A stretch of DNA of 64,000 bases from Alphaproteobacteria bacterium (GTDB taxonomy: Bacteria > Pseudomonadota > Alphaproteobacteria > Caulobacterales > Aquidulcibacteraceae): NCBI GenBank assembly GCA_016124655.1, contig WGNI01000009.1:62001-126000 (forward strand). The letters are read 5' to 3'. The notes below the pieces were generated by a model. It was not told where the DNA came from. It was given only the letters and a program-made list of their open reading frames with translations, and did no database searches. A program made the position numbers and the translations under genes. Shown piece by piece: positions 40,164 through 43,642 of the stretch. Position 1 is the stretch's first letter; the number at the start of each line of letters is the position of its first letter.

Positions 40164-41942
40164 ATGCGCCGCATCATGCAGGCGTTGGCGGCCGCGGCCG
40201 CGCTCTGGGCCGGCGCCGCGCACGCGCAAGCGACGCGGCCCAATGTCGTGATCCTGCTCATCGACGACGCCGGCTTCACCGATCTCGGCGCCTATGGCGG
40301 CGAAGCCCGCACGCCCAACATCGATCGCCTCGCCGCGCGCGGCGCGCAATTCTCCCGCTATTACACCTCGCCTTTGTGCTCGCCCTCGCGCGCCATGCTG
40401 CTCACCGGCGTCGATAATCACCGCACGGGCCTCGCGACCATTCCCGAAGTGCTGCCGCCTGAGCATGTCGGACGCCCGGGCTATTCCATGCGCCTGGAGC
40501 CGGGCCTCGAAACCGTCGCGCTGCGCCTGCGCGAGGCCGGCTATCGCACCTACATCACCGGCAAATGGCATTTGGGCCACGGCCCCGGCGATCTGCCCAA
40601 CGCGCACGGCTTTGACCGCTCCTTCGTGCTCGACGCCTCCGGCGCCGACAATTGGAGCCAGCAAGCCTACATGCCGTATTACGCCCACGCCGATTGGTTC
40701 GAGGACGGCGCGCCCGCGCGCTTGCCGGATAATTTCTATTCTTCGCAATTTATCGTCGACCGCATGATCGACTATCTCGATCAGGACGCCCGCGCCGATG
40801 CGCCGTTCTTCGCCTATCTCGGCTTTCAGGCCGTGCACATTCCGGTGCAGGCGCCGTCGGAATTCACCGCAAACTATATCGGTCTCTATGATCAGGGCTG
40901 GGAGCCGCTGCGCCAGGCGCGCTGGCGCCGCGCGCAAGAGCTGGGCCTGATCCCGCAAGGCGCGCCGATCGCACAGCTGCATTCGACCATGCGCGCCTGG
41001 GACGATGTCGACAGCCAAGAACGCGCGCTGCTGGCGCGCGCCATGGCCGTCCATGCCGGCATGCTGGAGGCGATGGATCATCACATCGGCCGCCTCATCG
41101 CGCATCTGGAGCGCACGGGCCGCGCGCAGAACACGATCTTTATTGTCACATCAGACAACGGTCCTGAGCCGTCTGATCCCATGCAAGCGACCGGCTTCGC
41201 GCAATGGCTGGCGCTGCAAGGCTATTCGCGCCGCGTCGACAATCTCGGCGAGCGCGGCTCCTACGCCTATATCGGCCCCGAATTCGCCAGCGCGACCGCA
41301 TCGCCCGGCGCTTTGTTCAAGTTTTACGCAACCGAAGGCGGCGTGCACGCGCCCTTGATCGCCGCCGGGCCGGGCGTCGCCGTTCAGCGCACCGCCGCGC
41401 GCGCCTTCGTCACCGATATCGCGCCGACAATCCTGGAATGGGCGGGCCTTGCCCCGCGCGCGCGCGAAGGGGCGCAACCCATCTCCGGCGTCAGCCTGCG
41501 CGCCGTGCTCGAAGGCCGCGAAAGCGTCGCGCGCGCGCCCGATGACGCCATCGCCATTGAAGTGTCCGGCAACGCCGCGCTCTATCGCGGCGATTACAAG
41601 ATCACGCGCACCATGGCGCCATATGGCGACGGCCGCTGGCGGCTTTACGATCTTGCCGCCGATCCCGGCGAGACCCGCGACCTCAGCGCGGCGATGCCGG
41701 AAATTTTCGCGCAGATGCAACAAGCCTACGCCGACTATGCCCGAGCCAATGGCGTGCTGGATCTGCCGGAAGGCTATGAAGTTCACCGGCAGGTCGAAAA
41801 GAACACCCTGGCCAAGCTGCGGCGGCGCTATGCTCCCGTCCTTGCCGCCGCCGGCGCAGGCCTTCTGGCGCTGATCGGCGCGGCGGTCTGGTTCGTGCGT
41901 CGCAGACAAAAGAAAGCGGCCCGGGCGGGGGCCGCTTTCTAG
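40164..41942 (+). CDS. Membrane-anchored sulfatase (formylglycine-type)
   Basis: A 592-aa alkaline-phosphatase-superfamily sulfatase. Signal peptide MRRIMQALAAAAALWAGAAHAQ is followed by the metal-binding VVILLIDDAGFTDLG (Asp34/35) and the sulfatase signature LCSPSRAMLL; Cys72 would be converted to formylglycine. Later motifs include GKWHLGHG and IFIVTSDNGPEPSD with Asp/Asn ligands. The C-terminus is a membrane helix (AGAGLLALIGAAVWFVRRR) with basic tail, so the enzyme is anchored facing the periplasm. A hairpin overlaps its stop codon. A formylglycine-generating enzyme is not in the window. Confidence 0.93.
   Translation: MRRIMQALAAAAALWAGAAHAQATRPNVVILLIDDAGFTDLGAYGGEARTPNIDRLAARGAQFSRYYTSPLCSPSRAMLLTGVDNHRTGLATIPEVLPPEHVGRPGYSMRLEPGLETVALRLREAGYRTYITGKWHLGHGPGDLPNAHGFDRSFVLDASGADNWSQQAYMPYYAHADWFEDGAPARLPDNFYSSQFIVDRMIDYLDQDARADAPFFAYLGFQAVHIPVQAPSEFTANYIGLYDQGWEPLRQARWRRAQELGLIPQGAPIAQLHSTMRAWDDVDSQERALLARAMAVHAGMLEAMDHHIGRLIAHLERTGRAQNTIFIVTSDNGPEPSDPMQATGFAQWLALQGYSRRVDNLGERGSYAYIGPEFASATASPGALFKFYATEGGVHAPLIAAGPGVAVQRTAARAFVTDIAPTILEWAGLAPRAREGAQPISGVSLRAVLEGRESVARAPDDAIAIEVSGNAALYRGDYKITRTMAPYGDGRWRLYDLAADPGETRDLSAAMPEIFAQMQQAYADYARANGVLDLPEGYEVHRQVEKNTLAKLRRRYAPVLAAAGAGLLALIGAAVWFVRRRQKKAARAGAAF
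41911..41940 (+). terminator. Hairpin overlapping the sulfatase stop codon
   Basis: AGAAAGCGGCC (41911-41921) and GGCCGCTTTCT (41930-41940) form an 11-bp stem with an 8-nt loop. It encodes the last residues of the sulfatase and includes the first base of its TAG stop. It probably acts as a terminator; the T-run is only the short T3 of the stem. Confidence 0.55.
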
Positions 41943-42115
41943 GGGGCTCAAGGAAAACCCGGCCGCGCAAGGGGGGGGCGGAGCGCGACCGGTCTTCGCA
42001 AGATCAAACGCCGCGCGCGGCGAGGGGTTCCACCCGCTCGATACTTTTTTCACGCGCTGCGCCCGCTTGGCCTGAGCATGGCGTCTGCGCCATGGTGTGC
42101 GCTCGGGAGGTCCAC

Positions 42116-43642
42116 ATGCGCGCGCTCTTGGCTGTGCTGGCTTGGCTCGTGTTTGCAGCGCCCGCGCACGCCGGTCCTGGCGAGGCGTTGGTGATCGGCA
42201 ACGGCGCCTATCGCGGCGAGGGCCTGGCGCTGTCCAATCCCATCGCCGACGCGCAGATCATGACCGCCCGGCTGCGCGCCCGCGGCTTCCGCGTCGAGAT
42301 GCTGACCGACGCCGACGCAGCCCGGATGCGCGCCGGCATCGAAGGTTTCGTCGCCCGCGCCGGCGCCGTGCTCGACCCCAGCGTGTCGCACTTCTTCTAT
42401 TATTCCGGCCATGGCGTGCAGATCGGCGGCGAGAACTATCTCTTGCCCGTCGATGTCCGCATCGACAGCGCAGCCGCGCTGACGCAGTCGGCGGTGCCCG
42501 CGAACACGCTGTTCTCCGCCATGCAGCGCCTCAACAACCGCATCAATTTCATCGTGCTCGACGCCTGCCGCTCCAATCCCTTCGCCGCGGCGGGTCAAAC
42601 CGAATCCGGCCTCGCCTCGCTTTCCGGCCTCGCCAACACCTTCATCGCCTTTTCCACCGCGCCCGGCATGGACGCGCTCGACGGCGAGGGGCGCAATTCG
42701 CGCTTCACCGCAGCGCTCGCGCGCGCCATGGGCGATGAGACCGCCACCGCGCAGGACGTGTTTCGCCGCGCCCGCGCGTACGTCATCGAAACCAGCGGCG
42801 GCGCCCAGCAACCTGATTATGTCGACGTCATCACGCTCTCCGGCGGCGATCCGTGGCGCTCGGTGATTTTGGGATCGCGCGCGCTCGGCCGCACGCGCGG
42901 ACTTGTCCAAGTCAGCGCCTATGGCGAACTGACGAATTATTCCACCGCCGTGCAAGCGCTTGCGCTCAGGCCCGCGCCCAGCGCCGATGCGCCCTCGCTT
43001 GAGCGCTGGGTGGCCGCGATGCGCGCCATGGTCGACGCCGGCGACCGCAACGCGGAAATCCAACCCGATTATCTCGATGAAACCTACGAGCCGCTGCTGC
43101 GCCGCGTGCTGCGCGCAGCGCAGAATGAACGCTGGAGCGAATACGATCTCGCGCTGTTTTTGGCCCACGCCGCGCAGGAGACGTATCAATTCCAGGCGCT
43201 CGCCGAATATGGCTCGGAAAGCTATCTCGCCCGCTATGACGGCCGCGCCGACCTTGGTAATACCACGCCGGGCGACGGCGCGCGCTATCGCGGCCGCGGC
43301 CTTCTGCAATTGCGCGGCCGCGCCAATTATCGCCGGCTTGGCGCAGCCGTCGGCTTCGATCTGGAGAACCAGCCCGAGGCGCTCGCGCTGGATGAAGATT
43401 TGTCCGCCCGCGTGTCCGTGGCGATGTTCCGCCCGGCCGCCGCCGCGCTCACACGCGCGCCGCGCGGCGATCTGATCCGCACCACCGAAATCCTCACCGG
43501 CGCAACCCGCGATGTCGGCCTGCGCGGGCATTTCTTCGCCCGCATCCTGCGCGCGCTGCAGGCCCCGCCGCCGGCCGCGCACAGGGTGGACGGCCCGCTC
43601 GTGCCCCACCAGTCCGGCCCAAATCCTGTCGACCCGCCTTGA
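42116..43642 (+). CDS. Exported caspase-like protease fused to a GH19 (chitinase/lysozyme-type) domain
   Basis: A 508-aa protein with an N-terminal signal peptide (MRALLAVLAWLVFAAPAHA) and ribosome site GGGAGG. Residues ~22-250 are a peptidase C14 caspase-p20-like domain: GEALVIGNGAYRGEGLALSN, the catalytic His99 in HFFYYSGHGVQ and Cys151 in FIVLDACRSNPF. After a linker, residues ~320-490 are a GH19-type domain: FLAHAAQETYQFQAL with the catalytic Glu355, then RYRGRGLLQLRGRANYRRLG and ILTGATRDVG. The product would act in the periplasm or outside the cell, coupling proteolytic control to peptidoglycan cleavage. A CATGGCG/CGCCATG hairpin lies 22 bases before the start. Confidence 0.88.
   Translation: MRALLAVLAWLVFAAPAHAGPGEALVIGNGAYRGEGLALSNPIADAQIMTARLRARGFRVEMLTDADAARMRAGIEGFVARAGAVLDPSVSHFFYYSGHGVQIGGENYLLPVDVRIDSAAALTQSAVPANTLFSAMQRLNNRINFIVLDACRSNPFAAAGQTESGLASLSGLANTFIAFSTAPGMDALDGEGRNSRFTAALARAMGDETATAQDVFRRARAYVIETSGGAQQPDYVDVITLSGGDPWRSVILGSRALGRTRGLVQVSAYGELTNYSTAVQALALRPAPSADAPSLERWVAAMRAMVDAGDRNAEIQPDYLDETYEPLLRRVLRAAQNERWSEYDLALFLAHAAQETYQFQALAEYGSESYLARYDGRADLGNTTPGDGARYRGRGLLQLRGRANYRRLGAAVGFDLENQPEALALDEDLSARVSVAMFRPAAAALTRAPRGDLIRTTEILTGATRDVGLRGHFFARILRALQAPPPAAHRVDGPLVPHQSGPNPVDPP

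Follow-up and report, generated by a model that had tools for sequence, protein, structure and literature searches.

The open reading frame at positions 42116-43642 raises the question of what a caspase-like protease and a wall-hydrolase-type GH19 domain do together in one apparently exported chain. It lies in the window, the whole 64,000-nucleotide stretch analysed here (G000:C18:62001-126000, from an assembly that is 85% complete). The first-pass annotation had described an exported caspase covalently joined to GH19 and proposed that it acts as an effector lysing the wall or as a lysozyme set free by proteolysis. The covalent fusion was borne out, with both domains sharing one uninterrupted frame of 508 aa on the plus strand, free of internal stops.

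42116-43642, plus strand: entire gene, 508 aa, running from signal peptide through caspase (C14) and linker to GH19
42106-42110, plus strand: Shine-Dalgarno-like GGAGG read in the sequence, 5 bases 5' of ATG 42116
42116-42172, plus strand: putative Sec signal peptide, residues 1-19 (MRALLAVLAWLVFAAPAHA), from sequence only
42863-43000, plus strand: linker of about 45 residues (about residues 250-295), in which Arg255, Arg259, Arg261 and Arg285 are candidate Arg-cleavage sites by sequence inspection alone

ATG 42116 is preferred as the start over the upstream ATG 42092, because GGAGG precedes it at 5-base spacing. The N-terminus (MRALLAVLAWLVFAAPAHA, with Gly as the next residue) reads as a Sec signal, in line with the signal peptide that had been proposed, suggesting export of the caspase-GH19 protein. 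A frameshift masking a normal GH19 C-terminus was considered and rejected: when all frames over 42116-43642 were compared, a single frame gave a GH19 score, and third-position G+C was high throughout, up to the stop. Because of this single scoring frame and the continuous coding pattern, the gene is judged to contain neither a frameshift nor obvious decay.

The protease half was assigned with ease.

42185-42823, plus strand: Peptidase_C14 caspase domain, residues 24-236, by PF00656 (E 2.4e-31) and family alignment
42410-42412, plus strand: catalytic His99 in the YSGHG motif, invariant in 35 aligned caspases
42566-42568, plus strand: catalytic Cys151 in the DACR motif, invariant in the same 35

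PF00656 matched residues 24-236 with 109.6 bits (Pfam cut-off 21.4 bits), NF047832 gave 52.3 bits, below its cut-off of 140, and PADLOC returned only a weak generic caspase match for the gene. The caspase-p20-like dyad had been placed correctly at His99 and Cys151; it is intact and stands in the standard GHG and DACR contexts of Peptidase C14, and all caspase residues were intact in the alignment of 35 caspases. Orthocaspases cleave C-terminal to positively charged residues (PMC6426788), and by analogy with this family an Arg/Lys specificity would be expected.

The C-terminal half needed more evidence.

43001-43564, plus strand: GH19 endolysin fold, residues 296-483, by AlphaFold2 model, VIA and phmmer
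43178-43180, plus strand: Glu355, first GH19 catalytic Glu, kept (E in 89 of 93 unfused GH19 domains)
43205-43207, plus strand: Glu364, second GH19 catalytic Glu, kept (E in 89 of 93)
43313-43315, plus strand: Arg400, at the position of the Thr coordinating the catalytic water (T in 92 of 93)
43496-43498, plus strand: Thr461, replacing the substrate-binding Asn (N in 92 of 93)

PF00182 scored the C-terminal part at 24.8 bits, slightly below the Pfam cut-off of 25.5, and reached 25.8 bits when the whole frame including the neighbouring stretches was searched. Homology searches upheld the proposed GH19 identity, with matches to endolysin 4ok7 (phmmer, E 2e-13) and to a PHROG endolysin (E 5e-26). 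An AlphaFold2 model of residues 296-508, built from 22 sequences and with side-chain geometry uninspected, had a pLDDT of 87 and a pTM of 0.80; alignment-based modelling was limited to this GH19 part, and the only full-length model, from the single sequence, had a pLDDT of 34. The 39 best VIA matches of the AlphaFold2 model were GH19-type structures, the closest being the GH19 endolysins 9ms7 (VIA Z 20.7) and 9eoi (VIA Z 18.4). The searches and the model point unambiguously to a GH19 endolysin fold, although the C-terminal half of the domain has strongly diverged.

Glu355 and the RGRGLLQLRGR motif, both named in the first-pass annotation, are present, but it had passed over the Arg that stands where the usual QLTGR form has Thr. 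The motif Gln398 is also kept (Gln in 89 of the 93 unfused domains). The window GH19 thus shares the fold, both catalytic Glu and the hairpin Gln with the endolysins SPN1S (4ok7) and PaGH19Lys (9eoi), whereas it lacks their water-coordinating Thr and substrate-binding Asn. The former residue corresponds to GH19 Thr/Ser120, which is essential and positions the catalytic water (PMC2976769; PMC8547705), and to T130 of SPN1S endolysin, which coordinates that water (PMC8547705); the substrate-binding Asn is N191 in the endolysin numbering of PMC8547705, and the active-site list of PaGH19Lys includes Thr129 and Asn188 (PMC12329726). Changing that Ser to Ala, Cys or Gly turned a moss GH19 chitinase into a glycosynthase (PMC10536575), and the GH19 family also includes inactive 'chitinase-like' proteins and lectins (PMC8547705). 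With fold and both Glu found and the water-coordinating Ser/Thr and substrate-binding Asn replaced, the window protein is classed as a GH19-fold protein and only as a putative GH19 enzyme.

We lean towards an exported protease of Arg/Lys type, kept at the peptidoglycan by a module that derives from GH19 and would be weakly lytic or non-lytic. A periplasmic or secreted orthocaspase-type cysteine protease would be exported through the putative signal peptide; the GH19-derived module would probably bind glycan strands with little or no hydrolysis, because the water-coordinating Thr and the substrate-binding Asn are lost; and the wall-held caspase would cut envelope proteins upon some trigger. Peptidoglycan binding, weak or absent hydrolysis and action on envelope proteins are what we infer here, and a wall-anchored protease is the most economical reading. 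It is supported by the intact C14 dyad and core, by an intact GH19 fold in which two active-site positions invariant in 92 of 93 domains are changed, by the published role of Thr/Ser120 and the inactive GH19 proteins cited above, by the active-site deviations of all three fusions and the long GH19 branch described below, and by the wall-binding parts that exported caspases often bear (among the GTDB relatives scanned, PG_binding_1 in 10 of 69 and SH3_3 in 4 of 69). Like the window protein, those caspases carry a further domain that would place them at the wall, but theirs is a dedicated binding domain and the window's would be a former enzyme. Against the wall-held protease stand both catalytic Glu and the motif Gln, which are kept. 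Other lysozyme families use a different water-positioning residue, so weak hydrolysis is possible.

The same kept residues (Glu355, Glu364 and Gln398), the intact fold and a coding bias that runs to the end of the frame would also suit two working enzymes in one chain, in which a rebuilt GH19 site with slow or modified-glycan activity would serve wall turnover beside the protease. We consider this distinctly unlikely, given the strong divergence of the C-terminal half of GH19 and since, to our knowledge, no active GH19 has Arg at the Thr/Ser position.

A cross-genome search for the domain pair, as first suggested, found the fusion to be rare. GH19 was searched in samples of the order (299 genomes), class (385) and phylum (398) plus 60 relatives, about 1,020 different genomes, and the long GH19 frames, with two of 450-456 aa left out (G168:C11 and G262:C109), were then searched for a caspase domain; three caspase-GH19 fusions were recovered, in the window, in G015 and in G091. 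No close orthologue of the window fusion was present in the 60 relatives, and GH19 was absent from the best 80 GTDB loci, all caspases, a set from which the window's genome or near-identical ones may be missing. Likewise, no fused orthologues of the other two proteins were found in other genomes of the same genus (two for G015, five for G091), and 20 loci of muramidase PF11860 proteins from the order contained no caspase domain.

The G015 fusion (L034:6344-8743, minus strand, 800 aa) belongs to a member of the window genome's own bacterial family and combines a caspase, a muramidase PF11860 with intact motif Glu, GH19 and a C-terminal membrane segment. Like the window protein, it has an exported caspase followed by a GH19 domain with an altered site, but this GH19 is more altered (E89, Q118, T120 and N199 positions), and the extra muramidase, the membrane tail and an overlapping VanZ/sortase-like gene have no counterpart in the window. 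That VanZ/sortase-domain gene (L034:5454-6401, minus strand) overlaps the end of the fusion gene, whose product ends with the membrane segment and a basic tail; sortase-like anchoring is possible. The same genome also encodes a caspase followed by two muramidase domains (L046:4093-6390, plus strand), the second of which reads NVQSG, with Gln where the motif has Glu. The G091 fusion (L202:7616-10120, minus strand) comes from a different family within the order and runs from a caspase-like domain through GH19 to PG_binding_1. It resembles the window protein in the order of the two domains and in its altered GH19 site but has lost the caspase Cys (DAPR), and an unfused paralogue shares 67% identity with its GH19 and PG_binding_1 part.

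At the five key GH19 sites (Glu, Glu, Gln, Thr and Asn), the window has E, E, Q, R and T, the G015 fusion E, N, D, V and V (its Asn column possibly one place off) and the G091 fusion E, A, R, T and N, and G091's unfused paralogue keeps all five. Deviation was thus seen in 3 of 3 fusions versus 7 of 93 unfused domains (hypergeometric P 8e-4, which treats the sequences as independent and ignores relatedness, with n=3 fusions, two of them found via likeness to the window GH19).

Because both GH19 glutamates are kept, the main rival is an active GH19 muramidase restrained by the fusion and freed by a caspase cut in the Arg-containing linker, leading to programmed lysis. Glu355 and Glu364, the intact motif Glu of the G015 muramidase and linker Arg255, Arg259, Arg261 and Arg285 are consistent with it, the last in view of the cleavage after positively charged residues given in PMC6426788; however, Arg is common in this G+C-rich genome, so these linker sites carry little meaning, and the Thr-to-Arg and Asn-to-Thr changes fall at near-invariant positions. 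A precedent also speaks for it: in 2012, Asplund-Samuelsson et al. (PMC3501461) described four proteins pairing a metacaspase with Amidase_2 and eleven that carry a peptidoglycan-binding domain, and suggested, speculatively, an autolysis role for the metacaspase-amidase fusions. On balance, we regard such a gated autolysin as unlikely.

The GH19 tree of 96 domains gave the window GH19 the longest terminal branch (2.02, median 0.38), and by this measure it is the fastest-evolving of the 96 sequences compared; the long branch may also reflect adaptation to another substrate. The fused GH19 of G091 grouped with the unfused copies of its own genus (support 99/92), and the fusions require at least two changes on this tree. 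In the caspase tree, the G015 domain was nearest to G015's other caspases and the window's domain nearest to others; the placements of the window and G015 domains are weakly supported. As the trees do not join them, the three fusions look like separate events; a single shared origin for the window and G015 fusions is unlikely, and the G015 fusion is probably separate because its caspase lies closest to the others of that genome. The very long GH19 branch and the missing orthologue in the other genomes searched might instead suggest a recent functionless fusion heading for loss, but 508 open codons, high third-position G+C throughout and a full set of caspase residues make this highly improbable. 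The role first proposed, lysis of the wall by an effector or by a proteolytically freed lysozyme, was weakened by Arg400, Thr461, the fast evolution of the GH19 domain and the altered sites of the other two fusions.

Upstream of the window gene, a sulfatase gene (40164-41942) lies on the same strand across a gap of 173 bases in which terminator-like sites occur on the opposite strand only. FGE-sulfatase domains often accompany caspases in relatives, and a link to the sulfatase gene adjoining the window fusion is conceivable. G007, G015 and G016, genomes of this family, gave 5 to 14 query matches per genome, mostly caspases, with varied extra domains (FGE-sulfatase, WD40, Sel1, PPC, OmpA and pentapeptide). 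Downstream, on the opposite strand, are a small ORF matching DUF4160 below threshold and then the initiation factor IF-3 gene. The window genome also encodes two further caspases, one with Sel1 repeats, and one unfused GH19 with PG_binding_1. Additionally, it has a tandem-muramidase frame of 537 aa (G000:C17:5880-6983), and many of the family's genomes have similar tandem frames. Phage or plasmid origin was rejected, as coverage of the protein stayed below 80% in every phage and plasmid record: nearly every listed phage match falls within the GH19 part, and the best ones from plasmids are limited to the caspase part. An exact-peptide scan of viral contigs with the window protein gave no match.

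The G091 region (L202:4755-11644) contains a lytic transglycosylase gene (SLT_2), a patatin phospholipase gene, a TIR gene, a RyR-domain gene and transposases; the phospholipase resembles CBASS effectors (PADLOC E 2e-44), and from this gene content the region looks like a defence island. With the G091 fusion gene 46 nt from the transglycosylase gene and beside the phospholipase and TIR genes among transposases, and with a putative export signal and two domains acting on envelope components in the window protein, an antibacterial or predation effector released against other cells was considered. It is very unlikely for the window gene: the earlier remark that no immunity gene lies nearby was confirmed among the examined neighbours, which likewise showed no phage gene, toxin-delivery domain or mobile element, and a degenerate GH19 would be a poor lysin.

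As to novelty, the GH19 fusion is indeed rare, but the broader idea of joining a caspase to a wall hydrolase has been known since 2012 (PMC3501461), and only the GH19 version is new; no report of a caspase-GH19 fusion was found in the open-access literature. Like the window protein, the metacaspase + Amidase_2 proteins unite a caspase with a peptidoglycan hydrolase domain in a single chain; they differ in using an amidase and in coming from other bacterial groups, whereas the window has a GH19 endolysin fold with an altered active site. No characterised metacaspase + Amidase_2 protein was found in the literature searched.

Beyond the window's wall-held protease, it is possible, though we advance it tentatively, that exported caspases have repeatedly been joined to endolysin-type GH19 domains whose catalysis was disabled each time, so that a phage-type lysozyme became a wall receptor that would place and perhaps gate the protease on peptidoglycan. 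The role of exported bacterial caspases is mostly unexplained so far, and a caspase tied to a wall-recognising fold narrows its site of action and possible targets. If GH19 was repeatedly disabled upon fusion, these proteins would clearly exemplify how an endolysin fold can be put to new use for binding.
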